DNA of 64,000 bases from Aliiglaciecola sp. CAU 1673 (lineage in GTDB: Bacteria; Pseudomonadota; Gammaproteobacteria; Enterobacterales; Alteromonadaceae): contig NZ_JARHUG010000007.1 of the NCBI RefSeq assembly GCF_029223185.1, positions 1 through 64,000 on the forward strand, in the 5' to 3' direction. Made by a program: the position numbers and the translations under genes. The number at the start of each line of letters is the position of its first letter. Positions within the stretch are counted from its first letter, which is position 1. Below are positions 4,823 to 58,778 of this stretch, one piece after another. The notes beneath the pieces are model-generated. The model saw only the letters and a program-made list of their open reading frames with translations, did not search any database and had not been told where the DNA came from.

Positions 4823-5777
4823 GCTGATCAGAATCCTGCTTAAGCACCTTTAATAAGTGCACCATATCCTCTGGTAAGGGTGCCTGCCAGCTTAGCCACT
4901 CACCCGTGATAGGATGAGCCAGCTCCAACTGAGCAGCATGCAGTGCCTGGCGACGGAAGTTACGCAAGGTATCGCGAAGCTCCTCACTGGCCGATTTGGG
5001 TGGACGGGGGCGTCCGCCATAGAGAGGGTCACCAACAATAGGGTGATGCAGATACGCCATATGCACACGAATTTGGTGAGTACGGCCGGTTTCCAGTTTC
5101 AGGCGCAAATGGGTATGAGCGCGAAACTTCTTCATCACACGATAGTGAGTCACGGCCGGTTTGCCGGTAGCCCTTACCGCCATGCTGGTACGTTTGGAGT
5201 CGTGTCGGCCAATGGGTTCATCGATAGTACCACCAGCGACCATGGTGCCGTTGACCACCGCCTCATATTCGCGGCTTATTTCGCGCGCCTGTAATTGGGC
5301 AACCAAATGGGTTTGCGCCGGAATAGTCTTAGCCACCACCATCAAGCCGGTAGTGTCTTTGTCCAATCGATGGACAATACCCGCTCTTGGCACAGTGCCG
5401 ATTTGTGGCACATGATTCAGCAAGGCGTTAAGTAAGGTCCCATGACTATTTCCAGCACCGGGATGCACCACTAAATCAGCCGGCTTGTTGATCACCAGTA
5501 TATGATCGTCTTCGTACTGGATATCCAATTCGATGGCTTCAGCCTGATGTTGTTGCTGCAACTCGACCTGGGTACGGATTTCTACCTGCTCGCCACCAAA
5601 TAACTTTTCGCGCGGCTTATCCAGCACCTTGCCGTCCAATGTCACCTGACCGGCCAAAATCCACTCTTTTAGGCGTGAACGGGAATAATCGGGGAACAAA
5701 TCGGCTAAAGCCTGATCTAAGCGCTTGCCTATCAAGTAGTCAGGGACGATGGCGTTTAATTCAATATTTTCATGCAT
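4803..5777 (-). CDS. rluD: 23S rRNA pseudouridine synthase RluD
   Basis: Makes the pseudouridines of 23S rRNA helix 69 (1911/1915/1917). It has an S4 RNA-binding domain at the N terminus (RLDQALADLFPDYSRSRLKEWI) and an RluA-type catalytic domain with the active-site Asp in HRLDKDTTGLMVVAK. I use ATG 5777 (324 aa), which matches the family N terminus. A TTG 18 nt upstream would add six residues, and neither start has a clear Shine-Dalgarno sequence. It is the first gene of rluD-pgeF and is divergent from bamD, as is common in gammaproteobacteria. Confidence 0.95.
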   Translation of the reverse strand: MHENIELNAIVPDYLIGKRLDQALADLFPDYSRSRLKEWILAGQVTLDGKVLDKPREKLFGGEQVEIRTQVELQQQHQAEAIELDIQYEDDHILVINKPADLVVHPGAGNSHGTLLNALLNHVPQIGTVPRAGIVHRLDKDTTGLMVVAKTIPAQTHLVAQLQAREISREYEAVVNGTMVAGGTIDEPIGRHDSKRTSMAVRATGKPAVTHYRVMKKFRAHTHLRLKLETGRTHQIRVHMAYLHHPIVGDPLYGGRPRPPKSASEELRDTLRNFRRQALHAAQLELAHPITGEWLSWQAPLPEDMVHLLKVLKQDSDQHEADWD

Positions 5778-52988: not shown

Positions 52989-54119
52989 TTACCCCACCAG
53001 CGCGAGGAGGATACCAGCGGCGACAGCAGAGCCTAACACGCCTGCCACATTAGGGCCCATAGCATGCATCAGCAAGAAGTTATGGGGATTGGCTTCAAGA
53101 CCCACTTTATTAACAACCCGGGCCGCCATCGGCACCGCGGAAACGCCGGCTGCACCAATCAAGGGATTGATCCCCCCCCCGCTTAGTTTGTTCATAAGCT
53201 TCGCCATCAACACACCCGCCGCAGTACCAATGGCAAAGGCAATAGCACCGAGGGCCAAAATCCCAAGAGTTTCCAGACTCAGGAACTTATCGGCGGAGAG
53301 TTTGGAGCCGACTGCAAGGCCGAGGAAAATAGTGACCACATTAATAAGCTCATTTTGAGCTGTCTTACTGAGGCGCTCTACGACACCGCACTCACGCATC
53401 AGGTTGCCCAGGCAAAACATCCCAACTAAAGGTGTGGCTGTAGGCAAGAACAAAATGGTCAGCATCAACACCATCAGCGGGAATAAAATTTTCTCTTTCT
53501 TTGAAACGACGCGTAGCTGTGCCATCTCAATTTCCCGCTCAGCCTGGCTGGTTAAGGCTTTCATAATGGGGGGCTGGATAATGGGTACCAACGCCATGTA
53601 AGAATAGGCTGCCACCGCGATGGCTCCGAGCAGATCCGGTGCCAGCCGTGAAGCTAAAAAGATAGCAGTAGGCCCATCAGCACCGCCAATAATAGCGATA
53701 GCTGAGGCGTCTTTGAGGGTAAAGTCAAAACCCGGGATCAGGTTTAACAGGATGGCACCGAATAAGGTCGCGAAAATCCCAAACTGCGCAGCCGCCCCCA
53801 GCAGCAACATTCGTGGATTAGCAATCAAGGCACCGAAGTCGGTAAGTGCCCCTACGCCCATGAAAATCAGCAACGGAAAAACCCCGGTTTCAATACCGAC
53901 CAGATAAACGTAATACAACAGCCCCCCTGGTTCACTGAAACCAGCCAGCGGAATATTGGTCAGTATTGCCCCAAAGCCGATGGGTAATAACAACAGGGGC
54001 TCGAACTTACGCACAATCGCCAGGTAGAGCAGCAGTAGCCCTACCGCCATCATCACCAACTGGCCCCACTGGAAATTGGCCAGGGCCGTGGATTGCCACA
54101 GGATCTGTAACTTCTCCAT
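52989..54119 (-). CDS. oadB: Na+-pumping oxaloacetate decarboxylase, beta subunit
   Basis: A 376-aa membrane subunit that decarboxylates carboxybiotin and exports Na+. About ten hydrophobic helices are visible, and conserved blocks include [45 protein letters not shown] and [18 protein letters not shown]. The GGADGPT region carries the Asp used in Na+ translocation. It is the last gene of oadG-oadA-oadB, 4 bp after oadA. Confidence 0.96.
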
Positions 54120-54123
54120 CGGC

Positions 54124-55902
54124 TTACCCCAGAGTCAGCAGTGGTTGGCCCGCTTGCACCGCATCGCCTTCTTTGACCAGCACTTCAGCCACCTGGCCAG
54201 CATGAGCCGCGCGCACCTCGGTTTCCATTTTCATGGCTTCCATCAGTAGCACCACATCTCCTTTGTTGACGCTTACTCCCGGTTTTGCCAGCACTTTGAC
54301 AATGTTCCCGGCCAATGGCGCATTAAGGGTTTCGGCACCTGCCACCGAGGCCTTTTGCGGCGGATCTTCGGCGCCTTTTACCGGTTTAATATCGGTCAGT
54401 TCACCACTATCGGCTACCTCTACCTGATAGACCTTGCCATCCACACGCACCGCATAACTGGCAGGGCTTTTTCCTGAGCTAGCTGCCGGCGCCGCAGGCT
54501 TGCTAACTGGTTCAAGACCCGGCGCAGGCTCAAAGGCCGCAGGATTATTGCGATTTTCCAGAAATTTCAGGCCTACCTGGGGGAAAAGTGCGTAGGTAAG
54601 CACATCATCAACTTTATTTTCAGCAAGTTTAATGGCCTTCTCTAAGGCCAGCTTGGATAACTCCGCGGTGAGCTTATCCAATTCATCATCCAGCAGGTCT
54701 GCCGGTCGACAAGTGATAGCCTCTTGGCCATCCAAAACCCTGGCCTGCAATGCCTTATCCACTGGAGCAGCCGTGGCGCCATATTCACCTTTAAGCACGC
54801 CGGCCGTTTCCTTGGTAATGCTCTTATAGCGCTCGTTGGTCAGCACATTCAGCACCGCCTGGCTACCGACAATTTGTGAAGTGGGAGTAACCAAGGGGAT
54901 ATAGCCCAGATCTTTCCTGACCTTGGGGATCTCTTTCAACACCTCATCCAATCTGTCTTCGGCGCCTTGCTCGCGTAACTGGTTCTCCATATTAGTTAAC
55001 ATACCGCCCGGCACCTGTGCCACCAGGATCCGCGCATCCACGCCCTTAAGACTACCCTCAAAGCGGGCGTATTTTTTACGCACTTCTCTGAAGTAGGCCG
55101 CTATCTCTTCCAATAACAGCAAATCCAGGCCGGTATCCCGCTCGGTGCCCTCCACCATCGCTACCACAGTTTCAGTGGCGGTATGGCCATAGGTCATGCT
55201 CATGGATGAAATGGAAGAGTCGAGCATATCGATGCCAGCATCGATGGCCTTTTGATAGGTGGCCGTACTTAACCCGGTAGTGGCATGGCATTGCATGGTA
55301 ATAGGTACTGCTACCGCTTCTTTAAGACCAAGGATTAAGGCTTCGCAGTCATAAGGCTTTAGCAGGCCAGCCATGTCTTTGATGCAGATGGAATGCACGC
55401 CCATGTCTTCCAGTTGACGCGCCATGGTTAACCACATGTCCAGGTTGTGCACCGGGCTGACCGTGTAAGCCAGTGTACCCTGAGCATGGGCACCGACATC
55501 AATGGTGGCTTTGACGGCGGTTTGCAGATTGCGCACATCATTCATCGCATCAAAGATACGAAACACTTCTACACCATTGGCATAAGCCCGCTCTACAAAC
55601 TTTGTCACTACATCATCGGCATAATGCCGATAGCCGAGCAGGTTCTGGCCGCGAAGCAACATTTGTTGGCGAGTATTAGGCATCGCCTTTTTAAGCTCGC
55701 GAATACGTACCCAAGGATCCTCACCCAGGTAGCGGATACAGGCATCAAAGGTGGCACCGCCCCATGACTCCATGGACCAAAAACCTACTTGGTCCAGCTT
55801 TTCAGCAATCGGCAACATATCGTCCAAGCGCATACGTGTTGCGAGCAGCGACTGATGTCCATCACGCAGTACGAGTTCAGTCAGAGCGAGAGGCTTGGTC
55901 AT
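54124..55902 (-). CDS. oadA: oxaloacetate decarboxylase, alpha subunit
   Basis: A 592-aa cytoplasmic subunit. The N-terminal carboxyltransferase TIM barrel has [13 protein letters not shown] and [11 protein letters not shown] with the Zn-binding HAT region ([10 protein letters not shown]). A conserved carboxylase domain follows, then a proline/alanine-rich linker and a C-terminal biotinyl domain with MEAMKMETE (biotin-Lys near 558). It transfers CO2 from oxaloacetate to biotin. Confidence 0.97.
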
Positions 55903-55911
55903 AAATACTCC

Positions 55912-56169
55912 CTATTTTTGTTGGCGGTGTTGATGGATGGCGGCGCTGATAGCGGCGATAACAGAGGCCGATGGCGCCGCTCCTGGATTGTCGACCTTGG
56001 CACTGAGATTTGCCGGCACAGATATGGGCTCATCGATTGTATGCTTGCAGAACCGACTAACCAGTTGAATAGCACCAATCAGCAAGCTTAAGAACAGAAA
56101 CACTACCAGCATGCCCACCACCAACAACATGGCAGCATCGAAAAGAAGGGACTGTACGCTTGTTGTCAT
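55912..56169 (-). CDS. oadG: oxaloacetate decarboxylase, gamma subunit
   Basis: An 85-aa small subunit with one N-terminal transmembrane helix (FDAAMLLVVGMLVVFLFLSLLIGAIQL) and a polar C-terminal tail that includes histidines (AAIHQHRQQK), which bind zinc in other OadG proteins. It holds alpha and beta together. It is the first gene of the operon, 9 bp before oadA. Confidence 0.93.
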   Translation of the reverse strand: MTTSVQSLLFDAAMLLVVGMLVVFLFLSLLIGAIQLVSRFCKHTIDEPISVPANLSAKVDNPGAAPSASVIAAISAAIHQHRQQK

Positions 56170-56497
56170 TTGTATTCTGTCCTTGCTTAAAAAATGATAA
56201 GTAGCATGAGGTTAGGTTTAAAACAACACCGTAGCGCGGTTAATTTATGCATATGAAATTACTTTTTATTCACTTATTTTAGGTATTCATGCATGAAAAG
56301 CTTCTGGAGCTTTAGTTTTAATGATTCTAGGGTAGTTGGTTTATTGGGATTTTGGTTTGTGATTGGGTGAAGGCTGTAAGCGAGCGAGGAGTGGCTTAAC
56401 ACAACTCCGAGAGTGATGAACAGCGCGCCGTGGATGGCGCGCCTGGAACACGGCTACAGGGATGTAAGACCTGAGAACGCTGAAATTAGCCAGCAAT
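56170..56497. other. oadGAB upstream region and edge of the repeat-rich area
   Basis: 56170-56345 is AT-rich and must hold the oadG promoter (minus strand); two ATGCAT palindromes lie at about 56250 and 56290. I cannot assign a defined promoter. 56390-56497 has an inverted repeat around a GGCGCGC arm and the phrase ACGGCTACAGGGATGTAA, partly repeated at about 56830-56850. No gene is visible. Confidence 0.55.
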
Positions 56498-56753
56498 AGG
56501 ATTGCATTGGGCTGTCCTGCCCAATGCCCTGCGGGCCATCGTCAGCATGGTTGCCCGGAGCAACCATCAACAGCTTTAGCTGGTCCGCAGGACGAACCAC
56601 ATGGAGGTGGTGAGTAAACGCGACGATGTCCTAAAACGCTCCAGGCGTTTTAGTCGAACCTGGGAGGTTCTTACCCCGTCCCACGACGGGGTATAAAAGA
56701 AAAGGCCCGCTCTTTCGAGCGGGCCTTTTCTTTTATATGGCGCGTGTGGAAGG
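56498..56753. repeat. tRNA-Arg-linked hairpin repeat, copy 1
   Basis: Consists of hairpin I (CATTGGGC/GCCCAATG, loop TGTCCT, 56505-56526), GCCCTGCGGGCC, a 75-bp insert with a further ATGGTTGC/GCAACCAT hairpin, hairpin II (AAAACGC/GCGTTTT), hairpin III (ACCCCGTC/GACGGGGT), an 18-bp terminator-like stem (56694-56735) and the last 16 nt of a tRNA-Arg gene. 56498-56544 equals 56884-56930. 56620-56753 matches 56935-57068 with two differences. Confidence 0.85.
56738..56753 (-). pseudogene. tRNA-Arg 3'-end remnant
   Basis: The minus strand of these 16 bp is identical to the 3' end of the complete tRNA-Arg genes, including CCA, and it is followed by the same terminator. The remaining tRNA body is missing; unrelated sequence starts at 56754. 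It is either a deletion scar or a by-product of duplication. Confidence 0.75.
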
Positions 56754-56883
56754 GTGAAGTCAGTTTCTTTAGGCGCTCAGCGCCGCCTGGCTGAACGGCA
56801 GCCCAAGGAAGGGCTGACTGGAATATCCGTACAGGGATGTAAACACGCGATGCACTAGCTTTAAATCATTATTGACTGGTTGA

Positions 56884-57052
56884 AGGATTGCATTGGGCTG
56901 TCCTGCCCAATGCCCTGCGGGCCATCGTCAAAAAGCGACGATGTCCTAAAACGCTCCTGGCGTTTTAGTCGAACCCGGGAGGTTCTTACCCCGTCCCACG
57001 ACGGGGTATAAAAGAAAAGGCCCGCTCTTTCGAGCGGGCCTTTTCTTTTATA
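56884..57052. repeat. tRNA-Arg-linked hairpin repeat, copy 2
   Basis: Same order of hairpins as copy 1 without the 75-bp insert: hairpin I at 56891-56912, hairpin II, hairpin III and the terminator stem. It lies directly downstream (minus strand) of the intact tRNA-Arg at 57053-57129. Confidence 0.85.
57009..57050 (-). terminator. tRNA-Arg terminator
   Basis: Perfect 18-bp stem (57009-57026 with 57033-57050) containing GGCCCGCT/AGCGGGCC, with loop CTTTCG and A/T-rich outer arms. It lies 3 bp after the tRNA 3' end and acts on the minus strand; the arms make it symmetrical. Confidence 0.88.
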
Positions 57053-57129
57053 TGGCGCGTGTGGAAGGATTCGAACCTCCGACCGCCTGGTTCGTAGCCA
57101 GGTACTCTATCCAACTGAGCTACACACGC
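57053..57129 (-). tRNA. tRNA-Arg (anticodon ACG)
   Basis: A 77-nt cloverleaf with encoded CCA. The acceptor stem GCGTGTG pairs with CACACGC. The anticodon arm is CCTGG-CTACGAA-CCAGG, giving ACG. The T-arm has GGAGG-TTCGAAT-CCTTC. It has its own promoter and terminator. Confidence 0.97.
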
Positions 57130-57182
57130 GTAAATCTTGAATTCTGGCTGTTTGCCAGGTCACCCTGTCACAGCGAGGGCGC

Positions 57183-57210
57183 ATTCTACACGTCATTTAG
57201 GTAAATGCAA
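57183..57210 (-). promoter_or_regulatory. tRNA-Arg promoter
   Basis: Minus strand: TTGCAT (57205-57210), 16-bp spacer, TAGAAT (57183-57188), then GCGCCCTC. The GC-rich discriminator is the same design as the rRNA promoters at the left edge of the window, pointing to stringent control. Confidence 0.75.
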
Positions 57211-57421
57211 TACTATTTTACTCGTCTGCATGGGTCAATTTCTTCAAACCTGTTGCCCGGGGAACAAATAGTCAAGGATGAACAGGGAGTAACAACTGAG
57301 CGCATGCTAGTTTTGTTTCGCACAACAATGATCGTTTAAACACTGGTGACGTAGTAAATCTGTGAACTTCAATCTTGGCTTATGCAGTTCGGCCACTAAG
57401 CAGTATCAGGTAGCAGAATTG

Positions 57422-57919
57422 ATGCAAAAACCGAAACTCCCCACCAATGAAACCATGCGCCTGTGTGCACTTTATCGCCTGGAAATATTAGATACCCCGG
57501 CAGATGAAAGGTTTGACAAAATAACCGCCAAAGCAAAGGACTACTTTGATGTGGACCTGGCCTTGGTCAGTTTGATAGATGCTGACCGACAGTGGTTTAA
57601 ATCCAAGCAGGGATTGGATGCAGAGGAAACATCGAGAGACATCTCTTTTTGTGGCCACGCCATCAATCAAGATGACATCTTTTATGTTAAAGATGCCCGA
57701 AACGACGAGCGCTTTTCCGACAATCCTTTGGTAACCGGTGCCCCGCATATTCGCTTCTATGCGGGCGCGCCGATTATTAGTCCAGATGGATATAAAGTAG
57801 GAACGCTATGTATTATTGATTCTGCTCCTAAAGAGCTGCTTCCTGCGGATTTGGTGATGCTAAGGCAGATGGCGGATATGGTTGAGCAGTTGTTGGTTGA
57901 GGTGGCGCTAACAACTTAA
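57422..57919 (+). CDS. GAF-domain protein
   Basis: A 165-aa protein made of a single GAF domain of the type often fused to GGDEF or kinases: RLEILDTPADERFDKIT, SLIDADRQWFKSKQGLDAEETSRDISFCGHAI and RFYAGAPIISPDGYKVGTLCIID. No output domain is attached and none follows. The start is ATG 57422, with AGGTAG about 9 nt upstream; a GTG 60 nt earlier is possible. It is divergent from the tRNA-Arg gene and its partner is unknown. Confidence 0.82.
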   Translation: MQKPKLPTNETMRLCALYRLEILDTPADERFDKITAKAKDYFDVDLALVSLIDADRQWFKSKQGLDAEETSRDISFCGHAINQDDIFYVKDARNDERFSDNPLVTGAPHIRFYAGAPIISPDGYKVGTLCIIDSAPKELLPADLVMLRQMADMVEQLLVEVALTT

Positions 57920-57951
57920 AAATTTCTTGAGAACGACTGGTGCGTGAAGTG

Positions 57952-58118
57952 GAAGGATTACGCTGGACTGTCCTGTCCAGCGCCCTGCGGGCCGTCGTCA
58001 AAAAGCAACGATGTCCTAAAACGCTCCAAGCGTTTTAGTCGAACCTGGGAGTTCTTACCCATCCCGGGACGATATAAAGAAAAAGGCCCTGCTGCAAAGC
58101 AGGGCCTTTTTCTTTATA
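57952..58118. repeat. tRNA-Arg-linked hairpin repeat, copy 3 (diverged)
   Basis: Same layout as copies 1 and 2, but diverged. Hairpin I is CGCTGGAC/GTCCAGCG (57961-57982) with the same TGTCCT loop. Hairpin II keeps AAAACGC/GCGTTTT. Hairpin III is largely lost. The terminator stem changes on both arms. Confidence 0.82.
58073..58118 (-). terminator. terminator of the tRNA-Ser/tRNA-Arg transcript
   Basis: Perfect 21-bp stem (58073-58093 with 58098-58118) with the core GGCCCTGCT/AGCAGGGCC and a GCAA loop, directly after the tRNA-Arg 3' end on the minus strand. Confidence 0.88.
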
Positions 58119-58195
58119 TGGCGCGTGTGGAAGGATTCGAACCTCCGACCGCCTGGTTCGTAGCCAGGTACTCTATCCAACTGAGCTACACACGC
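58119..58195 (-). tRNA. tRNA-Arg (anticodon ACG), second copy
   Basis: 77 nt with encoded CCA, identical in sequence to the gene at 57053-57129. It lies 34 bp downstream of tRNA-Ser and is probably cotranscribed with it. Confidence 0.97.
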
Positions 58196-58556: not shown

Positions 58557-58778
58557 TTATGCATCGTCATCTTTTCGTGAGTTGCCTGGCTCATGAGAAC
58601 CATATTGGGCATTTTTCTCAGCCTGTATACGCATATAGATTTCTTCGCGATGTACAGACACTTCTTTAGGCGCATTCACGCCAATACGTACCTGGTTTCC
58701 TTTTACACCCAACACAGTGACGGTCACTTCGTCACCAATCATCAGGGTTTCACCTACACGACGGGTCAAAATCAGCAT
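58557..58778 (-). CDS. csrA: carbon storage regulator CsrA
   Basis: A 73-aa RNA-binding dimer that represses translation at GGA sites and controls central metabolism and motility. The conserved core [18 protein letters not shown] and [10 protein letters not shown] are intact. The C-terminal tail is somewhat longer and more acidic than in E. coli (61 aa). AGGAG precedes the ATG. It follows alaS on the same strand, the common gammaproteobacterial order. Confidence 0.97.

Follow-up and report, generated by a model that had tools for sequence, protein, structure and literature searches.

GGA-looped relatives of RtT RNA and the tRNA-linked repeats in Aliiglaciecola sp. CAU 1673 and their possible relation to CsrA

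Known repeats behind stable-RNA genes and the Aliiglaciecola units

According to PMC8144298, the tRNA-linked repeats (TLRs) have been described in Escherichia coli since 1978, and no TLR function had been known before that study. The three rRNA-linked members, RrA, RrB and RrF, are reported there to be unique among the E. coli TLRs in predicted CsrA affinity, the tRNA-linked ones scoring <0.01 as CsrA binders; they are made via T1 read-through and then processed, and RrB is flanked by two terminators. Tagged RrB pulls down CsrA, RrB shifts with CsrA with a dissociation constant (KD) of about 100 nM, and mutating 3 of its 5 GGAs abolishes the shift within the tested range (PMC8144298). RrA and RrF are given as >98% identical (PMC8144298), and the RrB sequence alone was compared in our analysis. 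For RtT RNA (Rfam RF00391), two papers report upregulation at low temperature in Thioalkalivibrio and a small RNA (sRNA) candidate in Actinobacillus (PMC4986893, PMC8092127). Here we describe three multi-hairpin units of this kind in a stretch of 64,000 nt, called the window below, from Aliiglaciecola sp. CAU 1673 (Gammaproteobacteria, Alteromonadaceae; assembly GCF_029223185.1, contig NZ_JARHUG010000007.1, positions 1 to 64,000 of the forward strand).

Judged by sequence and fold, the units are a variant of the RtT/TLR family with eroded arms. They lie in a tRNA operon region behind an RNA gene, which is the location of TLRs, and the Rfam RtT model matches copies 3 and 2 over its full length (1-130; scores in Table 1). 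The tRNA-Lys unit of the same genome (G000:C12:263524-263662) reaches 55.1 bits with RtT, above the cut-off of 45, and shares 81% identity with copy 2 across 91 nt (BLAST, E 1e-18). With copy 2 as the query, BLAST detected 20 matches at E≤1 in the own genome, 13 of them <1e-3 (4 in the window, 9 elsewhere), and nothing at E≤1e-5 in the phage and plasmid collections. RtT matches were present in 14/40 genomes at E≤0.1, the own genome counted (4/40 above the cut-off), and across the class in 46/274 genomes at E≤1e-4 (19 above the cut-off).

Fifteen units from 7 genomes, together with a structure that we specified, served to build a covariance model, R1; it gave 153 matches in 71 loci, 150 of which were aligned and analysed. 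At E≤0.01, R1 detected at least 49 matches in the own genome, the window copies among them, and at least one match in 24/40 genomes (own included), while five genomes belonging to a single genus had at least 19 to at least 49 matches each; these counts are lower bounds, at most 97 candidates being scored per genome. E. coli RrB, in the rrnB T1-T2 spacer (77.2 bits), and four E. coli tyrT units (43-51 bits), all outside the training set, were also matched. The RtT match to the tRNA-Lys unit and the R1 matches to RrB and tyrT therefore place the units with the RtT/TLR kind, and the window copies are termed a variant with eroded arms because they miss the curated RtT score and the 18-19 nt tRNA copy. 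The full tRNA 3'-end copy is kept in other R1 units, for example behind tRNA-Lys in L004. A preliminary description of the array, made from its letters, had known of no named element with this layout; the RtT and R1 matches correct this point.

The hairpin order, the GGUUCGAC...GUAAUCC frame and the tandem arrays are common to our units and RtT/tyrT, and in both the tRNA 3' end is copied inverted and then direct. The window copies differ from RtT in falling below its curated score with eroded arms, and from tyrT in their loops II and I, which contain GGA, whereas the four tyrT units are without it. RrB has the identical core fold, two GGA loops (CGGGA, AGGAC) and a position behind a terminator, but it follows 5S rRNA, while the hosts found here are mostly tRNAs and the copy number is high (at least 49 per genome).

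Compensated stems and GGA loops

The preliminary description had noticed that hairpin I differs between copies by three base pairs, each changed on both arms, around a constant loop, and the sequences bear this out. The arms are CATTGGGC/GCCCAATG in copies 1 and 2 and CGCTGGAC/GTCCAGCG in copy 3, and the loop TGTCCT, AGGACA on the tRNA strand, is present in 3/3 copies. The terminator stem is likewise changed on both arms (GGCCCGCTC/GAGCGGGCC vs GGCCCTGCT/AGCAGGGCC), and hairpin II (AAAACGC/GCGTTTT) is common to all three copies, both as first described. The placement of all three units behind tRNA-Arg had to be amended: the three minus-strand units are present, and an intact tRNA-Arg directly precedes copies 2 and 3 only, copy 1 coming after copy 2 and being preceded by a 15-nt tRNA remnant and a second terminator copy.

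Compensatory change around fixed loops was also found beyond the window. The 15-unit alignment shows both-sided changes in 19/29 pairs, with 89.4% of cells paired vs 33-42% when the partners are slid by 1-3 columns; for the 150 R1 matches, in an alignment fitted to the structure, the values are 29/29 pairs and 90.2% vs 36-42%. Of the three outcomes named beforehand as speaking against the first interpretation, two were contradicted, since many copies are present in the own and related genomes (BLAST, R1) and covariation is strong; the third, stem drift in relatives, holds by half, the stems drifting with compensation. The first interpretation is, overall, partly supported.

GGA within a hairpin loop is the signature of a CsrA site. 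On the tRNA strand, the loops CNGGA of hairpin II and AGGAN of hairpin I are fixed while the stems change with compensation, and both loops carry GGA in copies 1, 2 and 3 (Table 1). The information content is 1.2-1.9 bits at the GGA positions, 0.3-0.9 bits in the hairpin I stem (closing base excepted, 1.65) and 0.6-1.7 bits in the hairpin II stem. Among the 150 R1 matches, GGA is present in loop II of 136 and loop I of 137, with 4, 7 and 9 for the other three hairpins, counts that are partly circular since the training units mostly carry GGA. To limit this circularity, we used a set derived from RtT, whose printed consensus is without GGA there (three loop positions are not shown in it). In this set (n=50, from 52 RtT matches, one unfetched and one partial being dropped), GGA was detected in loop II of 43/50 and loop I of 38/50 units vs 7/91 middle loops, and TCC in 0 and 3 of loops II and I, respectively.

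The GGA loops have a limited distribution. In a class sample of one unit each from 29 genomes, both loops carry GGA in 6, only loop II in 4, only loop I in 1 and neither in 18, and the GGA states of the two loops are associated (Fisher p 0.003, relatedness uncorrected). Where the hairpin I loop of this sample is without GGA, it mostly reads GNA. In genome G022 both RtT matches, and in G037 the tRNA-Glu unit, have no GGA in loop II or loop I, as is also true of the four tyrT units of E. coli.

Cognate flanks and insertion-like junctions

The sequences flanking a unit tend to repeat the end of its neighbouring RNA gene. A same-strand tRNA is located ≤700 nt upstream of 102/150 R1 matches. The flanks were compared with 24 tRNA types. 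When only the first unit behind a tRNA gene was taken (66 genes of 14 types, two of them from E. coli genes), the own tRNA ranked first for the right flank in 51/66 and, as reverse complement, for the left flank in 38/66; for all 102 units, the own tRNA is the best fit in 76 (right) and 50 (left). When tRNAs were shuffled among units, 0/5000 trials reached the observed sums for either arm (834 vs 447 shuffled, standard deviation 21; 676 vs 451, standard deviation 15). In four units that follow 5S rRNA (L113, L114, L094, L095), 20-26 nt from upstream, the 5S 3' end among them, occur again, the 5S identity being confirmed by Rfam for L113, L114 and L094. A minihelix of the left and right arms was considered as a general processing signal and rejected, the inverted arm ranking its own tRNA first in no more than the 38/66 given above and, in copy 2, folding on itself.

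Several loci depart from this pattern. Units located 5' of tRNA-Gly (L060, L086, L093) copy the tRNA 5' end, not the 3' end. Units in L007:1370-2290 repeat a tRNA-like 3' end with no intact tRNA by ARAGORN, which may reflect the loss of a tRNA or the junction of an island, and two own-genome units 4 kb apart (L061:1072-1169 and 5070-5167, plus strand) have identical flanks with no tRNA matched. By eye, the terminator palindrome after tRNA-Ser(gga) in L011:1050-1150 seems to reach into the tRNA 3' end as a long inverted repeat. A 49-bit unit (L009:1487-1583, minus strand) is antisense behind an open reading frame (ORF) resembling elongation factor G by eye, with no tRNA in the locus (ARAGORN).

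We defined the core of a unit as the stretch from the first base (C) of hairpin II through the GTA after hairpin I. Taking out the core leaves an unbroken tRNA or 5S sequence at several sites, with cases on either strand. A tRNA or 5S was present in the locus of 125 units; with gaps of -10 to +10 allowed, 85 of these gave ≥17/22 matches, and 79 of the 85 are best uniquely at gap 0. The left-junction dinucleotide is GA in 125/150, partly as a product of the model, as R1 contains TTCGAC and the sense T-loop junctions are partly built in. Untrained junctions were detected at the tRNA-Gly 5' end (GCGGGA^ATAGCTCAG; L060, L086, L093), in the tRNA-Ser D-loop (GTGGCTGA^A; L011, L072), in the antisense tRNA-Phe T-loop (GAGGCGGA^ATCGAACC; L079), at the antisense tRNA-Gly 3' end (GAGCGGGA^AAC; L093) and in 5S (CCATGTGA^; L085, with L094/L095 less exact), E. 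coli RrB being at a different 5S position. Single mismatches next to the junction occur (tRNA-Asp, 5S). In our reading, one cassette was probably inserted repeatedly, and cassette and flank were then duplicated in tandem. Some R1 matches (L070, L076, L017, L018) have the look of tandem palindromes, with no clear junctions; these may be degenerate or due to chance.

Such junctions raise the alternative of a selfish palindromic cassette, in which the core of ~71-80 nt is or was mobile and lands after GA, mostly in RNA-gene copies, its palindromes and GGA loops being kept for recognition by the mobility machinery as folded single-stranded DNA and any RNA role being incidental. The contiguous joined flanks with their unique gap 0, the sites outside the sense T-loop and the nested antisense unit within copy 1 all fit it, and PMC2965389 notes rtT-like BIMEs in Enterobacteria. 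G-U pairs are also rare in hairpin II, with 13 among 1234 standard pairs of the 150-match alignment; in 67 distinct tRNAs of these loci their share is 2.2% for acceptor stems and 6.3% for T stems. The difference is modest, and low G-U was rejected as proof of DNA-level upkeep. Against a selfish cassette, GGA is gone from both loops in 18/29 class genomes with the fold retained, and the sense T-loop junctions are partly inherent in the model. The genome has two Y1 transposase genes (PF01797), and neither of the loci fetched around them (L232, L233) contains an R1 match at E≤1; a transposase partner was therefore rejected, and an autonomous partner is not known. The units resemble REP/BIME elements as dispersed short palindromic sequences (PMC2965389), but no Y1 gene adjoins units in the two loci checked, and the hosts here are mainly RNA-gene copies with a GA^ junction. 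We consider the selfish cassette unlikely.

In the window, the minus strand reads alaS, csrA, a terminator-like hairpin, tRNA-Ser, tRNA-Arg, a terminator and copy 3, and then, past an opposite-strand GAF ORF, tRNA-Arg, a terminator, copy 2, the tRNA remnant, a terminator, copy 1 and oadG/oadA/oadB (Table 1). The R1 match starts 59 nt past tRNA-Arg for copy 3 and 62 nt for copy 2. A window scan with Rfam at the gathering score detected three tRNAs and nothing else. alaS was named from its translation and protein matches (AlaS of Lacimicrobium sp. SS2-24, 82%; Alteromonas and Marisediminitalea, 74%), and of 80 alaS loci from named organisms, 8 contain R1 matches, 11 in all. The GAF-domain ORF (PF01590; 57425-57919, plus strand) is between the two tRNA-Arg genes, and the oadG-oadA-oadB genes of a Na+-pumping oxaloacetate decarboxylase (52989-56169, minus strand) are directly past the array.

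Table 1. Features of the repeat array and its surroundings (positions in the window)
Feature	Position	Strand	Basis
csrA, upstream of tRNA-Ser	58557..58778	-	PF02599
tRNA-Arg(ACG), host of copy 3	58119..58195	-	ARAGORN; Rfam tRNA
Terminator-like perfect palindrome after first tRNA-Arg, 22-bp arms	58072..58119	-	palindrome read from sequence
Unit copy 3	57951..58060	-	R1 match, 103.6 bits; RtT 26.2 bits over 57941-58079
Core of copy 3, C...GTA, between TTCGA and ATCC	57959..58038	-	sequence and junction rule
Hairpin II of copy 3, tRNA-strand loop TTGGA	58016..58038	-	sequence
Hairpin I of copy 3, tRNA-strand loop AGGACA	57961..57982	-	sequence
tRNA-Arg(ACG), host of copies 2 and 1	57053..57129	-	ARAGORN; Rfam tRNA
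Terminator-like palindrome after second tRNA-Arg	57007..57052	-	palindrome read from sequence
Unit copy 2	56881..56991	-	R1 match, 112.3 bits; RtT 20.5 bits over 56877-57010
Core of copy 2, C...GCA	56889..56968	-	sequence and junction analysis
Hairpin II of copy 2, tRNA-strand loop CAGGA	56946..56968	-	sequence
Hairpin I of copy 2, tRNA-strand loop AGGACA	56891..56912	-	sequence
15-nt remnant of tRNA-Arg 3' end, ahead of copy 1	56739..56753	-	sequence repeat
Second copy of terminator-like palindrome	56692..56737	-	palindrome read from sequence
Unit copy 1 including nested insert	56495..56676	-	R1 match, 96.5 bits (L001:1112-1293)
Hairpin II of copy 1, tRNA-strand loop CTGGA	56631..56653	-	sequence
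Hairpin I of copy 1, tRNA-strand loop AGGACA	56505..56526	-	sequence
Nested antisense unit fragment within copy 1	56533..56624	+	R1, 35.6 bits (L001:1150-1241:+)

Possible titration of CsrA

The best reading, which we hold with moderate confidence, is that a TLR variant has spread into stable-RNA operons and that its RNA titrates CsrA. Read-through of the tRNA terminator would join the unit to the tRNA precursor, and processing, aided where the tRNA 3' end is copied, would free the unit RNA. Its two GGA hairpin loops (CNGGA in II, AGGAN in I) would then bind CsrA, and free CsrA would drop when stable-RNA operons are active. Expression and processing are proposed by analogy with E. coli RrB; as RrB-type loops stand in tRNA operons in tens of copies, we infer CsrA binding as well, and titration in step with tRNA synthesis. 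In a search confined to open-access papers, PMC8144298 alone was found to link TLRs with CsrA.

The proposed mode, several GGA hairpin loops sequestering CsrA (RsmA), is that of CsrB/CsrC and RsmX/Y/Z, and kinship with these RNAs is not claimed. CsrB (RF00018) gave nothing at E≤1 in the own genome, RsmZ (RF00166) gave none above its cut-off in 20 genomes, own genome included, and RsmY (RF00195) none above its cut-off in the own genome, where its best match, at 29.2 bits against a cut-off of 57, overlaps the unit that follows tRNA-Ser(gga). The known CsrA-titrating sRNAs were therefore rejected as the identity of the units. Sub-threshold RsmZ and RsmY matches mean little, because they were also seen in unrelated control genomes. 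These negatives leave room for a CsrA-titrating role yet prove nothing, as the three families tend to be poorly detected beyond their home groups.

Several observations weigh against titration of CsrA by the units. The RtT gathering score (45 bits) is not reached by the window copies, copy 1 being absent from the RtT matches, and the 18-19 bp copy of the upstream RNA 3' end is not kept in the window, where copies 3, 2 and 1 have 11, 8 and 6 contiguous nt. GGA is in neither loop of the four E. coli tyrT units and of 18/29 class genomes, and CsrA binding is therefore not the function of the whole family. Some units are antisense to the tRNA or away from any RNA gene found, so that co-transcription is inapplicable there. 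Adjacency to csrA was rejected as a regulatory link, a terminator-like hairpin separating csrA from tRNA-Ser. Hairpin I loops are mostly one base shorter than the CsrA loop obtained by SELEX (systematic evolution of ligands by exponential enrichment). Finally, deletion and over-expression of rrA/B/F in E. coli led to modest and similar, hence contradictory, phenotypes (PMC8144298).

The hairpins could instead act as a processing or termination spacer, insulating tRNA 3' ends, backing up a leaky terminator and offering decoy tRNA ends to RNases, with no titration. A terminator and copied tRNA 3' ends do belong to the layout, and it has been proposed that RNase E recognises the 5S end copy (PMC8144298); the fixation of GGA in two loops only, with varying stems, and the units at tRNA 5' ends or antisense are left unexplained, and we regard a pure spacer as quite improbable. 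Most improbable is the absence of any function, with tandem duplication and template switching at palindromes giving paired arm changes without selection: tandem arrays are present and one-sided changes are few in hairpin II, yet template switching should flip the loops too, against the near absence of TCC in the RtT matches, and the fold is common to E. coli.

A bolder proposal joins the cassette to the titration of CsrA. Tentatively, and with more doubt than belief, a discrete mobile cassette (~71-80 nt, C...GTA after GA) may target tRNA and 5S copies and carry a CsrA-binding hairpin pair; in its spread among stable-RNA operons it may have coupled the titration of CsrA to growth rate in Alteromonadaceae, loops II and I switching jointly between a CsrA-binding GGA and a plain GNA form across the class.

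The kind of element, RtT/TLR, is known; new are the GGA loops in tRNA-linked members, the high copy number and the defined cassette junctions. The zero-gap junctions define a repeated cassette (C...GTA after GA) and suggest a mode of spreading, which the usual description of a repeat ending in a tRNA 3' end does not. With tRNA-linked units bearing RrB-type GGA loops at counts from at least 19 to at least 49 per genome, the CsrA hypothesis can be tested in organisms in which a large effect would be expected, and, if the reading is true, CsrA could thereby be tied to tRNA production.

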